64,000 nucleotides of DNA from Thermaerobacter subterraneus DSM 13965 (GTDB lineage: Bacteria; Bacillota; Sulfobacillia; Thermaerobacterales; Thermaerobacteraceae), in the NCBI RefSeq assembly GCF_000183545.2, contig NZ_JH976535.1:1231890-1295889 (forward strand). The letters run 5' to 3'. How positions within the stretch are numbered: position 1 is the first letter of the stretch; every line of letters begins with the position of its first letter. Shown piece by piece: positions 14,144 to 21,922 of the stretch. Both the position numbers and the translations under genes were made by a program. The notes under the pieces are model-generated. The model searched no databases. It was given only the letters and a program-made list of their open reading frames with translations, and was not told the origin of the DNA.

Positions 14144-15643
14144 ATGCACCACCACGCAGCCCAGGGGGCGGCGGCTCCGGGCGGGTCGGGGACGGGGCCC
14201 GACGCCCGGGGCTACTTCGGGCCCTTCGGGGGCCGGTTCGTCCCGGAGACGGTGATCCCCGCCCTGGAAGAACTGGAGCAGGCCTATGGGGAGGCCGCGG
14301 CGGACCCGGCCTTCCGGGCGGAGCTGGAGGGCTACCTGGCGGAGTTCTGCGGCCGGCCCACGCCCCTCTACCGGGCGGACCGGCTGGCGGCCGCCTGCGG
14401 CAACCCGGGGGTGCGGGTCTACCTGAAGCGGGAAGACCTGAATCACACCGGGGCCCACAAGATCAACAACGCTCTGGGCCAGGCGCTGCTGGCCCGGCGT
14501 ATGGGCAAGCGGCGGGTGATCGCCGAGACGGGGGCAGGGCAGCACGGCGTGGCCACGGCCACGGCGGCGGCGGTGCTGGGGCTGGAGTGCGAGGTCTTCA
14601 TGGGCGCCGAGGACATGCGCCGCCAGCAGCTGAACGTCTTCCGCATGGAGCTGCTGGGTGCCCGGGTCCGGCCGGTGACCTCGGGAACGGCCACCCTCAA
14701 AGATGCCACCAACGAGGCCATCCGCCACTGGGTGACCCACGTGCGGGACACCCACTACATCATCGGGTCGGTGGTGGGTCCCCACCCCTATCCCCGCATG
14801 GTTCGGGATTTCCAGTCGGTGATCGGGCGGGAGGCCCGGGCGCAGGTCCTGGAGAAGGAGGGGCGCCTGCCCGACGTGCTGGTGGCCTGCGTGGGCGGGG
14901 GCAGCAACGCCATGGGCCTGTTCTACCCCTTTGTGGACGACGCGGGGGTGGCCATGATCGGGGTGGAGGCGGCGGGAGAGGGCCTGGAGACGGGGCGCCA
15001 CGCGGCCTCCCTGACGGCCGGGCGGCCGGGGATCCTCCACGGGGCCCTGAGCTACCTCTTGCAGGACGAGGACGGCCAGGTGCAGCCGGCCCACTCCGTC
15101 TCCGCCGGCCTGGACTACCCCGGCGTCGGGCCCGAACACGCCTACCTCAAGGCCAGCGGCCGGGCCCGGTACGAGGCGGTGACGGACGAGGAGGCGCTGG
15201 AAGCCTTCGAGTTGCTCTGCCGGACGGAGGGAATCGTCCCGGCGCTGGAGAGCGCCCATGCCATCGCCTACCTGCGGCGCCTGCTGCCCCAGCTGCCGGC
15301 GGGCAGCGTCGTGGTGGTCAGCCTGTCGGGGCGGGGCGACAAGGACGTGGCGGAGGTGGCGCGGCTGCGGGGCCGCGCCGGCCGGGGCGTGAACCGGAGC
15401 GCTCCCGGCGGCAACCCGAGCCACGACGCCGGCCGCCCCATGCTTGGCAACCCAGCGGAAGCCGGGATCACGGCGGGACCTGTGGGGCGGGGGATGCCCG
15501 CAGCGGCGCCGGTGGCTGCCGCGGCCGGAGCGCCCGCGGCGGCGGCCGGGGCCGCGGGCCCCATGGCGCCAGCAGCGGCTTGCGGGACCACGGGCCCCGC
15601 GGGGTCCCGGGGAAAGGAGGAGAGCCGGTGGATCCAGCGGTAG
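14144..15643 (+). CDS. trpB: Tryptophan synthase beta chain
   Basis: PLP enzyme that joins indole and serine to tryptophan. The PLP lysine lies in [18 protein letters not shown] (about residue 106); other motifs are [22 protein letters not shown], and the phosphate-binding [10 protein letters not shown]. The sequence begins [15 protein letters not shown] after a short Gly/Ala leader, typical of the TrpB1 branch. 499 residues; the catalytic fold ends near 408 and the remaining 90 residues are an Ala/Gly/Pro tail. ATG follows GAGAGAG. The 3' end overlaps trpA by 16 bases. Confidence 0.96.
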
Positions 15644-16566
15644 CGGGTGGGGCAGTAGCTGGTGAAGCGGCGGCCGGTGGGGTGGCGGCCGGTGGGGTGG
15701 AGGCCGGCGCGGAGGTGCCCGAGCCGGTCAACCGCCTGGACGCCGCTCTGGCCCGGGCCCGCTCCGAGGGGCGGGCGGCGCTGATCGTGTACGTCACCGC
15801 TGGGCACCCCGACCTGGCGGTCACCCGGCAACTGGTGCCCGCGCTGTTCGCCGCGGGCGCCGACGTGGTGGAGGTGGGGATGCCCTTTTCCGATCCCCTG
15901 GCCGACGGGCCCACCATCCAGCAGTCGACCCAGAAGGCCCTGGCCCGCGGGGTGCGGCTGGCGGGGGTCCTGGATCTGGTGCGGGACCTGCGGGTCCAGG
16001 GCGTGGACGGGGCCCTGGTGCTGCTGACCTACGCCAACCCCCTCTTGGCCCGCGGCCTGCTGGATGACCCCAGCCCCCTGGCCGCCGCCGGCCTGGACGG
16101 GGTGATCGTCCCCGACCTGCCCATGGTGGAGCGGGGCCGGGCCGAGGCCGCCTTCCGGGCGGCCGGTCTGCACCTGATCCCCATGGTGGCGCCCACCAGC
16201 TCGCCCGAGCATGTGCGGCGGGCCGCGGCCGGGCGGGGCGGGTTCGTCTACTGCGTCTCGGTGACGGGGGTGACGGGGGCGCGGAAGAACCTGCCCGACG
16301 AGCTACCCGCGTGGCTCGACCGTATCCGGGCGGCGGGGCCGCGGCCGGTGGCCATCGGCTTTGGCGTCTCGGGGCCGGAGCAGGCCCGGGCCCTGGCCGC
16401 CCATGCCGACGGCGTCATCGTGGGCTCCGCCCTGGTGGAGCGGATCGAGGAGGCGGCCCGGGATGGCTCGTCCACAGACGAACAGGCGAGGGTCCGCGCG
16501 GTGGTGGATGCGGCGACCGCCTTCGTGACGGCCCTCCGGCAGGCTCTGACGGGGAACCGGCCTTGA
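15628..16566 (+). CDS. trpA: Tryptophan synthase alpha chain
   Basis: Cleaves indole-3-glycerol phosphate and channels indole to TrpB. Motifs: [31 protein letters not shown] (catalytic Glu and Asp region), [17 protein letters not shown] and [12 protein letters not shown]. The GTG 15628 start is backed by GGAAAGGAGG 7 bases upstream and gives 312 residues, including a 30-residue Gly/Ala/Val leader before [10 protein letters not shown]. It is the last trp gene; no clear terminator with a T run is visible after it. Confidence 0.95.
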
Positions 16567-16794
16567 CGAGGGCGGGACCGGACGCCGGGCGGCAGCCCAA
16601 CCGCACCGTACCTTCCCTGCTGGCAGAGGTCCGGATCCGGCTGGGGCTGCCGCCCGCCACCAGCGGATGGGCCTGCTGCGGGGGATGAAAGGCGGGTTCG
16701 CCGGAGGATCACCGGTTTGCCGGGCAGCGCTGGGCCAAGGGCAAGCCGGTCGTGGGGCCCGCGACGAGGGGCACGGGGGTGGGGGAACGGCCGG

Positions 16795-17160
16795 CTAGCC
16801 CTTGCCCCCGCCCTCGGGTTCGATGATGGCCGTCTCCCAGGCCTCGGGATCCTCGATCAGCGACTGGGCCACCCGGTGGAGGACGTGGCCCAGCTCCGTC
16901 CAGCGGTCGGCGGCGTTCTTCCCCAGGGGAAAGACGGAGGCGTTGCCCTCCCGGTCCCAGCTGACCAGCACCGACGCCGTCTCCCCCGAGGGCGGCGACG
17001 GCAGGGCATACCCCGCCCCGCGCAGCAGCGACAGCACGATGCCGAACCAGAGGGTGGCGCTGACCGGTCGCAGGGTGCCCTGGGTGGGGGTGCGGGAGGC
17101 GCCGGGAATGTACCCGTAATGCCAGGTGGTGCTGGCCGGGTCGAACATCAGCACGTGCAC
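16795..17160 (-). CDS. Small protein of unknown function
   Basis: Not recognised. The 121-residue product begins VHVLMFDPASTTWHYGY and contains a moderately hydrophobic stretch (about residues 35-52, TLWFGIVLSLLRGAGYAL) and an acidic C-terminal half ending in AWETAIIEPEGGGKG. GTG 17160 is chosen because GGGGAGGG lies 8 bases upstream and earlier sequence in the same frame is low-complexity. It lies 169 bases downstream of the DUF4097 gene on the same strand and could be cotranscribed with it. Mixed residue composition argues that it is real rather than a GC-rich accidental frame. Confidence 0.55.
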   Translation of the reverse strand: MHVLMFDPASTTWHYGYIPGASRTPTQGTLRPVSATLWFGIVLSLLRGAGYALPSPPSGETASVLVSWDREGNASVFPLGKNAADRWTELGHVLHRVAQSLIEDPEAWETAIIEPEGGGKG

Positions 17161-17329
17161 GGGACGAACCCTCCCCGGCGCCCCACCCTCCGCAGGGGTG
17201 GCCCGCTCCCGTGGTGGGGCGCCGGTTCCAAGGTGCCCACGGCTTTCCAGGACTATGCATGGCGCAGGCCGCCGGGCAGGGGCGCGGGGGGTGTCCTGAA
17301 CCGGCAGGCGGCCGGAGGCGGCCGGGCCG

Positions 17330-18598
17330 TCAGGCCTCGCTTTCGCCATCCCGACCGGCACCCTCCAGGACCTCGAGCCAGCGGTCGGCCTCTTCCACCG
17401 TGAGCTCTCCTCGGGCCAGGGCCTCCAGCACCTGGCGCGGGTGGTGGTAGGGGCCGCGGCCTCCGCCCTCGGGGACCGGCGACGGACCGGCCGGAGCGGG
17501 TACATCCCCCCTGGGCCCCGTGGTCTCGGGGGTTCCTGCGGGGGCCGGAGTCCCGCCGGCGGCGGCCGCACCGGCGCCGGAGCCGGGGGCGAAGCCCAGG
17601 GCGGCACCACCGGGGCCAGGATGCCCCGGCGCGGGGTGCCCAGGACCGGATCCCGCTCCCGCTGGCGGCGAGCCGGCTCCGGCCGGGCCGGGACTGGGGG
17701 CCGGATCCTCCGGCCGGGCCGGTCCGGCGGGCGGAGCCGTTGAGGGCCCCGGCACCGGTCCGGCGCCCTCACCCCCGCCGGAGCGGTCCGCCGCACCATA
17801 GCCCACCACCCGGATGTTCCCCGCTCCCGTGGTGATCTCCACGGTGCCCTCGCCGGGCCCCAGGCTGTCCACGACCCGCTGGCCCAGGCCGCCCCGGCGG
17901 CCCACGTGGATCCCCCCGGGCACGTGGATCGTCCCCGCCCCGGTTTGCAGCTCCATGCGCCCGCCCCGCACGCCGGCTAAGTCGAGGACCACGTTGCCGA
18001 ACCCGGATCGCGCCTGGATCCGGGCCGCCCCCTGGTTGCGGGGCCGCAGGTCGACGGAGCCGGCCCCAGTGGTCACCTCGGCCTCCGCCTCCACCTCCGC
18101 GTCGAGGAAGACGTCGCCTGCCCCCGTGCGGATGCGCACCCTGCGCAGCCGGCCGCCCCGCACCGCCACCTCGCCGGCCCCCGCCTGCACCTCCAGGTCC
18201 CCGTGCTGGCCCACCAGGGTGACGTCCCCGGCGCCGGTGCGGATGCGCCAGCGGCCGCGGCAGCCCGAGGCCCTGAGATCCCCCGCCCGCACGTGCAGGT
18301 CGCCCTCCAGGTCCAGGTCCCGCAGGTCGACCTCGCCCGTACAGCGCACCACCAGGGCCTCCACCGCCGGCGGCAAGGTCAGGCTGAGCTGCTCCTCAGG
18401 CCCAATCCAGCCCGTCCAGCGGCGGGGGTGGGGGGTGCGCAGGACCAGGGCCTCGCCCTCCCGTTCTGCCACCAGGGAGGGCGGGCCCTCCCAGTCAAGC
18501 CCGTAGCCCGGACGAACCCGCACCGCCAGCCGCCCGCCGTGGACCTCCACCCGGCGCACGCCTTCCACCAGCCGGGACCCGGCCGTGTGCTCCTTCAT
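17330..18598 (-). CDS. DUF4097 beta-helix protein with C-terminal short helix-pair domain
   Basis: Putative surface or envelope-sensing protein of the DUF4097 (LiaX/YvlB-like) group; biochemical role unknown. Residues about 1-265 are repeats of a beta-strand motif such as IRTGAGDVTLVGQHGDLEVQ, predicting a right-handed beta-helix. Residues about 270-380 are Gly/Pro/Ala-rich. The end carries a helix pair (VLEALARGELTVEEADRWLEVLE), like the short domain of LiaX/YvlB proteins. The ATG overlaps the stop of the DUF2089 gene (ATGA). LiaX-type proteins take part in cell-envelope stress responses to antimicrobial peptides; a similar role here is inference. 422 residues; no signal peptide seen. Confidence 0.8.
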   Translation of the reverse strand: MKEHTAGSRLVEGVRRVEVHGGRLAVRVRPGYGLDWEGPPSLVAEREGEALVLRTPHPRRWTGWIGPEEQLSLTLPPAVEALVVRCTGEVDLRDLDLEGDLHVRAGDLRASGCRGRWRIRTGAGDVTLVGQHGDLEVQAGAGEVAVRGGRLRRVRIRTGAGDVFLDAEVEAEAEVTTGAGSVDLRPRNQGAARIQARSGFGNVVLDLAGVRGGRMELQTGAGTIHVPGGIHVGRRGGLGQRVVDSLGPGEGTVEITTGAGNIRVVGYGAADRSGGGEGAGPVPGPSTAPPAGPARPEDPAPSPGPAGAGSPPAGAGSGPGHPAPGHPGPGGAALGFAPGSGAGAAAAGGTPAPAGTPETTGPRGDVPAPAGPSPVPEGGGRGPYHHPRQVLEALARGELTVEEADRWLEVLEGAGRDGESEA

Positions 18599-19116
18599 TG
18601 TGGTTCCTCCCCTTCCCCAGGCCGAATACGGTGGTCCTCAAGGTCCGGGCCGCCGCCCGAGCCGGCTGCCGGGCGGGAGCCGGGCCCCGGGCTGCTGGCC
18701 GGACCCGCGGCGCTCAACAGTTCCAGCGCCTCGTCCACCGCCAGCTCGCCCCGCCGCACCCGCTCCAGGATGGCCTGCCGGGTTCGTCCCCGGGGGGAAG
18801 CGGTGCCGGGCGAACCGGCTCCCCCTTCGCCGGAGCCCGCAGTGGCGGGGCCGCCCAGGGCCTCGATGATCTCGTCCAGCTTCTTGCGCACCGTGGGGTA
18901 CGACACCCCCAGCATCCGCTCCATCTCCCGCAGGTTGCCGGCTGCCCGCAGGAAGAGCAGGGCAAACCGCCGCTGTTCCGGATCCAGGAGGTCGAAGGGG
19001 CTCAGCCGGTAGCGGGACCGGATCTGGGTCGCGCAGGCCGGGCAGGCCACCTCCCGGACCTCCAGGTCATGGCCGCAGTGGGGGCAGCGGGCGGGAACTT
19101 CAAAGGGCGGTCTCAT
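18595..19116 (-). CDS. DUF2089 family zinc-ribbon/HTH protein, probable regulator
   Basis: Small putative transcription regulator. The N-terminus has a four-cysteine zinc ribbon (CPHCG at about 11-15, CPAC at about 28-31), followed by a helix-turn-helix-like region (AAGNLREMERMLGVSYPTVRKKLDEIIEALGG, residues about 58-90; shown here in full only as a segment position with key residues N60, G70, T75, K78). The C-terminal part holds a helix pair, ILERVRRGELAVDEALELL, similar to the one ending the neighbouring DUF4097 protein. ATG 19116 has GGAGGTG 9-10 bases upstream and overlaps the MFS gene stop. The 174-residue protein is the middle member of a three-gene coupled operon. Confidence 0.82.
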   Translation of the reverse strand: MRPPFEVPARCPHCGHDLEVREVACPACATQIRSRYRLSPFDLLDPEQRRFALLFLRAAGNLREMERMLGVSYPTVRKKLDEIIEALGGPATAGSGEGGAGSPGTASPRGRTRQAILERVRRGELAVDEALELLSAAGPASSPGPGSRPAAGSGGGPDLEDHRIRPGEGEEPQ

Positions 19117-20564
19117 CCGCGATTCACCTCCACAGCCCCGGACCCGCTCGCGGCGTTCCCGGCGGCGGGGTGATCCAGCAGGGTGCGCATGGCCGGGGCC
19201 CGCCACCAGGCCGCCGCCACGGCGAGCACGGTCAAAAGGGCCGTAGTGGCGAAGATCATGGGGACGGGGACCCGGTCGGCCAGGGTGCCGCCGGCCATCT
19301 GACCCAGGGGTTGCAGGATCATGGCCACGGTGTAGAGCAGGCCGAACACCCGGCCGCGGAGATCGGGGGTCACGGCCTGCTGGAGCATGGTGGTGGCGGC
19401 CACGTTGACCAGGGCGTTCACCACGCCGAAGAGGCACCCGGCGGCGATGCTGGCGGGCAGCCAGCGGCTGGAGCCCAGCACGGCGCCAAGGAGGGCCTGG
19501 AGGACGATCAGTTGCATCCAGCCCCGGGCCCGGCGCGGCCCTCGACCGGTCCCCGCCAGCAGGCCGCCGGCCAGTGCGCCCACGGCCAAGGATGCCTGGA
19601 TCCACCCGAGCACCTGGGGTCCCCCTTGCAGCACCCGCTGCACCACCACGGGGATCAGGACGAAGGAAGCGGCGAAAGCCAGGTTCAGGACCGACACCAG
19701 GATGAAGAAGGGGCCCAGGTCGGGCCGCCCGAAGACGGCCGCCACCCCCTCCCGGAACTGGGCGGCGAAGGAGCGGTGGGAGCCCGTGGCCGGGCCGGCC
19801 GGGCGGCTGCCGGCGCCACCGCCCGCTTCGGATATGGCCGCAGCGCCGGCCTCGGAGGCGGTGCCGGGCCGGCCCGCCGTCTCATCGGGAGAGGACGGCG
19901 AGGGCGCCTTCCAGCCCAGGGCCCCCGCCAGCAGGATGGCCACGGCCGAGACGGCATAGGAGACGGCGTCGGCCAGGGCGGCCCAGCCCGGATGCCGGCT
20001 GGCCAGCACGCCGCCCAGGGCGGGACCGGCAATCCGGCCGACGCTCTCGCCGGTGGCCACCAGGCCATTGGCTGCGGCCAGCTGCTGGGGCGGCACCAGC
20101 TCCGGCCAGATGGCACTGCTCAGGGGTACGAAGAGGGCGAGGCCCGCGGCATCCACGGCGAGAAGCGCCAGGACCGCGGGGAGGGTCGCCCGGCCGGTGA
20201 AGAGCAGGGCGGCCAGGGCGGCCATCACCAGGCCGCGCCCCACCTCCAGAATCAGGAAGAACCGGCCGCGGTGCCAGCGGTCGGCCAGCACGCCGGCCGG
20301 CAGGCCGGCCACGGCCATGACCAGGGTGACCACCGCGTTGACGCTGGCCATCCACTGGGCCGAGCCGGTGGTCTCAAGGACCCACCACTGGATGGCCATC
20401 ATGTTGGCCATGCCGCCGGCCACGGAGACGATCCGGGCCAGCCACAGCACGACGAAGGGGCGCCGGCGCCAGAGGGAAGGCGGAGACGCTGCCTTGCGCG
20501 TCGAGGGCCCGGCCGGGGTGGCGTTGCGGGCCGGGGCGCCTTTGGGGTTGCCGGTGACGGACAC
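19113..20564 (-). CDS. MFS transporter, multidrug/macrolide-efflux type
   Basis: Twelve-helix major facilitator of the MFS_3 (enterobactin/macrolide efflux, MefA-like) type. Visible features: WLARIVSVAGGMANMMAIQWWV at helix 1, the loop GVLADRWHRGRFF (family motif A), and GLLYTVAMILQPLGQMAGGTLADR in the C-half. A Gly/Ala/Pro-rich central loop (about residues 215-255) joins the two halves. GTG 20564 follows GGAGGAATCCCC. 483 residues. It is the first gene of an operon with DUF2089 and DUF4097 proteins, joined by 4-base overlaps. Substrate unknown; drug or lipid export is the family tendency. Confidence 0.88.
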   Translation of the reverse strand: MSVTGNPKGAPARNATPAGPSTRKAASPPSLWRRRPFVVLWLARIVSVAGGMANMMAIQWWVLETTGSAQWMASVNAVVTLVMAVAGLPAGVLADRWHRGRFFLILEVGRGLVMAALAALLFTGRATLPAVLALLAVDAAGLALFVPLSSAIWPELVPPQQLAAANGLVATGESVGRIAGPALGGVLASRHPGWAALADAVSYAVSAVAILLAGALGWKAPSPSSPDETAGRPGTASEAGAAAISEAGGGAGSRPAGPATGSHRSFAAQFREGVAAVFGRPDLGPFFILVSVLNLAFAASFVLIPVVVQRVLQGGPQVLGWIQASLAVGALAGGLLAGTGRGPRRARGWMQLIVLQALLGAVLGSSRWLPASIAAGCLFGVVNALVNVAATTMLQQAVTPDLRGRVFGLLYTVAMILQPLGQMAGGTLADRVPVPMIFATTALLTVLAVAAAWWRAPAMRTLLDHPAAGNAASGSGAVEVNRG

Positions 20565-20616
20565 GGGGATTCCTCCTCCCGTTCCCGGGAAGCCTTACAT
20601 AACGATGATGAACACG

Positions 20617-20645
20617 GTATTAAACAAAGTCAATAACATGATCAA
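20617..20645 (-). promoter_or_regulatory. Candidate promoter in an AT-rich island before the MFS operon
   Basis: On the minus strand TTGATC (20645-20640), a 17-base spacer and TAATAC (20622-20617) lie in a strikingly AT-rich stretch (20596-20657) in a GC-rich genome. A second TTGACT overlaps the spacer. The -10 match is weak. The rest of 20565-20947 shows no gene; the part beyond 20660 is ordinary GC-rich sequence leading to the epimerase gene. Confidence 0.45.
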
Positions 20646-20947
20646 CGAATTTAATTAGTGGCTTCGATGTCAGGCCGCCGGCCCCGAATTGGGCAGGCAG
20701 GCCCCCGGAAGATGGCCCGTCCTGGTGACCGCGGCAGCGAGGTGAGCAGGATCCCCCAGTCCGGACCGCGAACTGGCAATATTAGACAGGGGCGCGGCAG
20801 CACCGGGCCCGCGGCTCGCAAGGATGACCTCGATCCCCTGGGCTGATTCGGTTTGGAAACGGACACCGGCCGGTGCGAAGATCGTCTCGATTCCGGTAAG
20901 GGGTCCGAGGCGGAAAGTGCGGCAAAAGCCGCGTGGGAGGGACAGCC

Positions 20948-21922
20948 ATGCGGGTGGTGATCAGCGGCGGCACGGGCCTGATCGGATCGGCCCTCGCCCG
21001 CCGGCTGCGAGCGCTGGGGCATGAGGTGGTCATCCTCACCCGGGGGGCGACGGGCGGGCCCACGGGTACGGCGGCCGGCGCGGCGGCCGGGGAGGGGGCG
21101 GATGGCGGCGGAGGGCTGTTGCGCTACCTGTCCTGGACGGCGAAACCGGTGGCGCCCGGGGACCCCCGGCCGGGCTGGTGGGAGGCGGTGGCCGGCGCGG
21201 GGGCGGTGGTCAACCTGGCGGGGGAGTCCATTGCCGCCGGCCGCTGGACCCCGCGCCAGAAGGAGCGGATCCGGGAAAGCCGGATCCAGGCCACCCGGGC
21301 GCTGGTCCAGGCCATCGAGGCGGCCGAGCCCCGGCCGGCGGTGCTGGTGAGCGGGTCGGCCGTGGGCTACTACGGGCCCCGGGGCGACGAGGTGATCGAC
21401 GAGGAAGCGCCGCCGGGGGACGACTTCCTCAGCCGGGTCTGCGTGGATTGGGAAGCCGAGGCCCGCAAGGCCGGAGCGGCCGGCGTGCGGGTGGTCCTGG
21501 TGCGGACGGGGCTCGTCCTGGCCCGGGAGGGGGGCGCCCTGCCCCGGCTGGTTCTTCCCTTCCGGCTGGGTGCCGGTGGGCCGCTGGGTCATGGGCGGCA
21601 GTGGGTGCCCTGGATCCACCTGGACGACCTGGTGGCCCTTCTGGTCTTCCTCATCGAAACGCCGGGCCTGGAAGGCCCCTTCAACGGCACGGCGCCTGAG
21701 CCGGTGACCAGCCGGGACCTGGCCCGGGCCCTGGGGCGGGTGCTGCGCCGGCCGTCCTGGCTGCCGGCACCGGCCTTCGCCCTGCGCTTGGCCCTGGGGG
21801 AGATGGCCGACGCCCTGCTCTTGAGCGGCCAGCGGGCCGTGCCGCGCCGGGCCCGGGAAGCCGGCTTCCGCTTCCGGTTCCCGGAGGTCGAACCGGCGCT
21901 GCAGGATCTGCTGGATCGCTAG
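20948..21922 (+). CDS. TIGR01777 family NAD-dependent epimerase/dehydratase (SDR39U1/YfcH-like)
   Basis: Extended short-chain dehydrogenase-like protein of unknown substrate. The Rossmann signature is MRVVISGGTGLIGSALARRL; further family features are VVNLAGESIAAGRWTPRQK, SGSAVGYYGPRGDEV (catalytic Tyr region) and a C-terminal DUF1731-like segment with PAFALRLALGEMADALLLSGQRA. 324 residues from ATG 20948, which follows GGGAGGG; a slightly earlier in-frame ATG lacks a site. Single gene, convergent with the rRNA methyltransferase that follows. Confidence 0.9.
   Translation: MRVVISGGTGLIGSALARRLRALGHEVVILTRGATGGPTGTAAGAAAGEGADGGGGLLRYLSWTAKPVAPGDPRPGWWEAVAGAGAVVNLAGESIAAGRWTPRQKERIRESRIQATRALVQAIEAAEPRPAVLVSGSAVGYYGPRGDEVIDEEAPPGDDFLSRVCVDWEAEARKAGAAGVRVVLVRTGLVLAREGGALPRLVLPFRLGAGGPLGHGRQWVPWIHLDDLVALLVFLIETPGLEGPFNGTAPEPVTSRDLARALGRVLRRPSWLPAPAFALRLALGEMADALLLSGQRAVPRRAREAGFRFRFPEVEPALQDLLDR

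Follow-up and report, generated by a model that had tools for sequence, protein, structure and literature searches.

The pairing of DUF2089 proteins with Toastrack (DUF4097) proteins has been described before. Ravi et al. (2024, PMC11237479) present the pair as a four-gene context of Phage-shock- and Lia-like type, and those parts of their paper that treat DUF2089-Toastrack contexts propose that they transduce membrane signals to transcription. Among Toastrack homologues, LiaX controls resistance to membrane-active peptides (PMC10269926), and the LiaXYZ/YvlBCD systems of Enterococcus and Bacillus are the second group with which our locus invites comparison. DUF2089 proteins also occur, together with ABC efflux genes, in clusters for leaderless bacteriocins, where the relevant portions of the reports at most guess at an immunity role (PMC7332713, PMC10707071, PMC9484092).

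Our locus lies in Thermaerobacter subterraneus DSM 13965, within what we call the window, the whole stretch of 64,000 nucleotides that was analysed. Four genes follow one another on the minus strand: an MFS transporter gene (19113..20564, 483 aa, with a GTG start 7 nt past a GAGGAGG), a DUF2089 gene (18595..19116, 173 aa), a DUF4097 Toastrack gene (17330..18598, 422 aa) and an orphan gene of 121 aa (16795..17160). The MFS stop and the DUF2089 start have the ATGA at 19116-19113 in common, and the DUF2089 stop and the DUF4097 start the ATGA at 18598-18595, so that the coordinates, the strand and both 4-base overlaps that an initial sequence-only reading had given for the first three genes are borne out. 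The same reading placed a 121-residue gene after the trio; it is there, but 169 nt past the DUF4097 gene and so outside the overlap coupling. GC content at third codon positions is 84-94% in all four reading frames, in a window of 73.6% GC, which supports all four as coding. Genes resembling trpB and trpA (14144-16566, plus strand) converge on the 3' end of the operon, and a related genome (G004, locus L071) likewise has convergent genes at that end. On the other side, a TIGR01777-type epimerase-like gene (20933-21922, plus strand) diverges from the operon and has its intergenic region in common with the MFS promoter.

Like the context of Ravi et al., the locus encodes a zinc ribbon-HTH-SHOCT protein beside a Toastrack protein; SHOCT-like domains recur and PspA is absent (PMC11237479). 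It differs in that, set against the gene list for the published context, the window operon is without PspC, LiaI-LiaF-TM, a SHOCT-only protein and YvlD/holin, and in that it is led by an MFS pump, a transporter type that goes unmentioned where that paper describes the context. PspC has no match in the genome, and the two PF04020 genes that the genome does contain lie elsewhere, none of them in the operon. With LiaXYZ/YvlBCD (PMC10269926) the common ground is a DUF4097 Toastrack with a helical module and a link to the envelope-peptide response; however, the module is C-terminal here and N-terminal in YvlB, PspC/YvlD neighbours are missing, a DUF2089 protein stands in place of LiaFSR, and the score against LiaX is far under the cut-off. 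The self-immunity clusters of EntDD14, bawcin and thucin (PMC7332713, PMC10707071, PMC9484092) resemble the locus in encoding DUF2089 with efflux transporters, but theirs are ABC/HlyD exporters accompanied by a bacteriocin gene, no Toastrack is named in the gene lists of these reports, and the DUF2089 proteins given for the EntDD14 and bawcin clusters are short, at 89-98 aa.

The first protein of the operon matches the general MFS models well (PF07690, 102 bits against a cut-off of 33.4; PF05977, 75 bits against 27), and it is the sole match of its kind in the genome at E 1e-10. Its best subfamily match is to the TIGR00900 H+ antiporters, at 190.7 bits and thus under the 319.6 cut-off, followed by the exporters Mef, Tet(V), Tap and EntS; the protein has an unbroken motif A (GVLADRWHRGR). 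The likeness to DHA3-type exporters such as Mef(A), Tet(V), Tap and EntS consists in this motif and in these being the best-matching families, while the difference is that the pump falls below the cut-off in every curated exporter model. We regard the protein as DHA3/MefA-EntS-like and, by best match, of exporter type, with antimicrobial export as a putative function.

The second protein carries clear DUF2089 HTH (PF09862, 76 bits, cut-off 33.4) and zinc ribbon (PF22747, 44 bits, cut-off 27.6) domains, and its C-terminus gives a match to the SHOCT-like PF22746 that is under the cut-off. Its architecture is that of a zinc ribbon, a three-helix HTH and a SHOCT-like hairpin, and an AlphaFold2 model from two sequences places the HTH helices at pLDDT 71-86 and a C-terminal bihelix at residues 109-136. 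It is the only DUF2089 copy in the genome above the cut-off, and we take it for a putative cytosolic one-component regulator and a candidate DNA-binding protein.

The third protein, the single DUF4097 copy in the genome, scores 30.1 bits against the Toastrack model PF13349 (cut-off 22.9), and the domain is followed by a linker of about 110 aa, rich in proline, glycine and alanine, and then by a C-terminal SHOCT-like hairpin. No signal peptide was seen on inspection of the protein, and hydropathy plots of its homologues within the genus gave no transmembrane segment. The curated LiaX model (NF038025) reaches 14.9 bits against a cut-off of 350, and the LiaG model gives a marginal 16.9 against 285. 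By these models the protein is a cytosolic-looking Toastrack protein and not LiaX. The LiaX-like character first ascribed to it must be abandoned given this score, the missing signal peptide and transmembrane segment and the missing PspC/YvlD neighbours; nor is there support for its acting as a surface sensor of envelope attack, the role that went with that assignment.

A SHOCT-like helical hairpin is found in both non-transporter proteins. Our own SHOCT profile matched the Toastrack protein at residues 388-406 (E 2.4e-5), and among the DUF4097 proteins encoded near DUF2089 the SHOCT-like module is present in 97 of 108, N-terminally in 66 and C-terminally in 28; DUF2089 proteins have the same module at the C-terminus. 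The profile was seeded with SHOCT proteins and DUF2089 ends, possibly including the C-terminus of the window's own DUF2089 protein, and its match to DUF2089 is for that reason partly circular, the match to DUF4097 not; the SHOCT matches in the window fall under the Pfam cut-off. The presence of this hairpin in each partner suggests that the DUF2089 and DUF4097 proteins contact one another.

The 121-aa protein has no match in Pfam or NCBIfam, and a single-sequence fold, at pLDDT 53, was of too low confidence to be used. The gene occurs in 5 of the 154 genomes of the class, all of them in the window's own family and always just 3' of DUF4097; it is a family-specific orphan that may be part of the operon transcript. 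Two other interpretations were rejected. A divergent SHOCT protein received 0.1% probability in profile comparison, and a gene independent of the operon, as suggested by a genome (G004) seemingly without DUF2089 and DUF4097, is contradicted by the contig itself, which has DUF4097 and a cut DUF2089 gene adjoining.

All three other species of the genus have the four genes in the order MFS-DUF2089-DUF4097-121 aa, with identities of 68-86% for the MFS protein, 79-90% for DUF2089, 63-91% for DUF4097 and 88-98% for the 121-aa protein. In another genus of the family, DUF2089, DUF4097 and the 121-aa gene lie at a contig end, where the sequence breaks off on the upstream side. Across the region 16600-21000 there is one promoter-like site (against 0.0 in shuffled sequences), a sigma-A-type TTGACT-N17-CATCAT at 20605..20633 on the minus strand, directly upstream of the MFS gene, where the three relatives align with TTGACA-N17/18-CATCAT/CACGAT. 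The genus has kept the TTGAC of the -35, the spacing, an AT-rich block and the GAGGAGG ribosome site, and the remainder of the upstream region diverges. The AT-rich block, AATTAAATTCGTTGATCATGTTATTGACTT (20628..20657, minus strand), is kept in four species between diverged flanks and overlaps the -35; it is a candidate operator, or it may be a plain UP element instead. With up to 3 mismatches allowed, the 2.9-Mb genome contains the genus-consensus pattern of block and -35 a single time. An Rfam search of the leader returned no match of note, and a riboswitch or other RNA there was dropped. The locus arrangement is not fortuitous, since the order of the four genes is kept in the genus and the only promoter-like site stands directly 5' of the MFS gene. 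A lack of conserved order among relatives, which had been named as grounds for giving up the proposed unit, was not what we found, and of the original suggestion that efflux, regulator and sensor are made as one set, the conserved unit with its one promoter-like site survives and the surface-sensor role does not.

Beyond the genus, DUF2089 matches occur in 109 and DUF4097 matches in 103 of the 154 class genomes, and most loci of a sample of 99 from the class have DUF4097 next after DUF2089. The usual genes downstream of the pair are a SHOCT protein of 120 aa and a four-TM PF04020 (YvlD-like) protein, which recall LiaXYZ/YvlBCD. In most relatives within the class no MFS gene accompanies the pair, and the pump is thus an optional member of the operon. 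Yet it recurs: in the 99-locus sample, 7 of 34 families have a co-oriented MFS gene within the operon, before the pair in f1 and f8, after DUF4097 in f9, f14 and f28, and after the SHOCT gene in f25 and f26. Of 20 loci taken from the phylum outside the class, 2 have an MFS gene within the operon or directly behind it. The survey of DUF2089-DUF4097 neighbourhoods for efflux pumps that the sequence-only reading had called for returned an association that recurs in unrelated families. MFS genes are 4.5 times as dense between -2.5 and +4.5 kb around DUF2089 as in the remaining, outer stretches of these loci, with one in-operon MFS gene at 5.7 kb scored as outside. Family f9 has one or two MFS genes directly 3' of DUF4097, the first of which overlaps or almost overlaps that gene (L156, L143, L175), and in L156 two stand in tandem. 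In three f8 loci (L127, L134, L142) a 12-TM MFS gene is divergent and directly upstream of DUF2089-DUF4097, not in the operon.

MFS genes are common and our loci are clustered by relatedness, and these facts would favour the chance co-location of an unrelated transporter gene in a compact genome. Same-strand MFS genes were found inside the operon in 7 families and outside it in 2-3, MFS proteins outside being rarer and several of the confirmed ones of other types; as this contrast is modest, the case against chance leans also on the ATGA overlap and on conservation in four species. Together with the two loci beyond the class, these make a chance origin highly improbable.

The linked transporters, exporter-like by their best matches, fall into two subfamilies or more, DHA3-like in f1, f9, f14, f25 and f26 and YdeE/MdtH-like in f8, with weak mixed matches only in f28. 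On a DUF2089 tree built from few columns by a quick method, the MFS trait requires at least 10 gains or losses. Given the number of subfamilies, the changes on the tree and the loci outside the class, several events of pump recruitment or loss are probable. Some of the weaker matches of the linked proteins are to EntS, to the lysophospholipid transporter LplT and to the MFS part of acyl-ACP-phospholipid O-acyltransferases, and Toastrack genes, in the parts of Ravi et al. that treat their neighbours, mostly accompany membrane maintenance proteins (PMC11237479). The pump could on these grounds export a lipid or metabolite, so that the operon would repair or balance membrane composition instead of exporting antimicrobials. 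However, all these matches are under curated cut-offs, and the f8 pump resembles YdeE/MdtH/Tet-type drug exporters, so that substrates would vary; we consider lipid or metabolite export distinctly improbable.

A more serious alternative is that the DUF2089-Toastrack pair controls genes elsewhere as a general regulator in envelope stress, and that the pump is an optional passenger effector that gains from stress-linked transcription without being specifically coupled to it. The pair is class-wide and the pump missing from most genomes; pumps of differing subfamilies and positions have been gained and lost; and in family f18 an MFS gene adjoins DUF4097 but not DUF2089, the DUF2089 gene and the DUF4097-MFS genes being on different contigs. 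Against this, the promoter element is found nowhere else in the genome, which favours local autoregulation, and the repeated gain of one class of effector suggests a functional coupling. We find the general regulator possible but rather doubtful. In genome G022, which belongs to f18 (L046 4520-5989, L158), the DUF2089 gene is the nearest to that of the window and is followed by a frame that motif inspection marks as PAP2-like phosphatase; with DUF4097 and MFS elsewhere, this suggests a reshuffling of the same parts.

In proposing a mechanism, we extend the membrane-to-transcription proposal made in the relevant part of Ravi et al. (PMC11237479) and the evidence that LiaX governs peptide resistance (PMC10269926). 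Our essential suggestion is that the locus is a self-contained efflux operon for envelope stress that controls itself through a one-component regulator, a reading to which we give a little less than an even chance and in which the single transcript, the regulation, the inducer and the pump substrate are all inferred. One promoter would drive an MFS exporter, a cytosolic DUF2089 DNA-binding protein and a cytosolic, membrane-proximal Toastrack scaffold, and the scaffold would hold or activate the DUF2089 protein near the membrane through SHOCT-SHOCT contact. When an amphipathic or membrane-active compound disturbed the membrane, that contact would change, and the DUF2089 protein would act on the AT-rich element that overlaps the -35 of its own operon, with the presumed result that more pump is made. 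A broader proposition is that the locus stands for a widespread and so far undescribed class of efflux operons of one-component type. In these, a Toastrack scaffold and a zinc ribbon-HTH regulator would communicate by paired SHOCT hairpins, different MFS exporters would have been recruited repeatedly, and membrane damage would turn on efflux directly, with no two-component system involved; this is in our estimation unlikely.

The sequence-only reading had regarded the set as unfamiliar among described systems, and this holds in part: the DUF2089-Toastrack pair is among the contexts that Ravi et al. do describe (PMC11237479), while the addition of the pump seems to be undescribed. Among open-licence papers, in their main texts, we found none linking DUF4097 to an MFS transporter, and loci of this kind could appear in a supplementary table to the 2024 paper; a Streptomyces cluster in the literature lists both, unlinked. 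The new part seems to be that a pump has been added to the pair repeatedly and in many families of bacteria. In Gram-positive bacteria, resistance to membrane-active drugs of last resort is under the control of Toastrack proteins, and an operon of a Toastrack protein, a candidate one-component DNA-binding protein and a pump offers a three-protein setting for the step by which a signal would pass from Toastrack to DNA. The recurrence of the pump suggests that the Toastrack stress system has adopted efflux as an output again and again.
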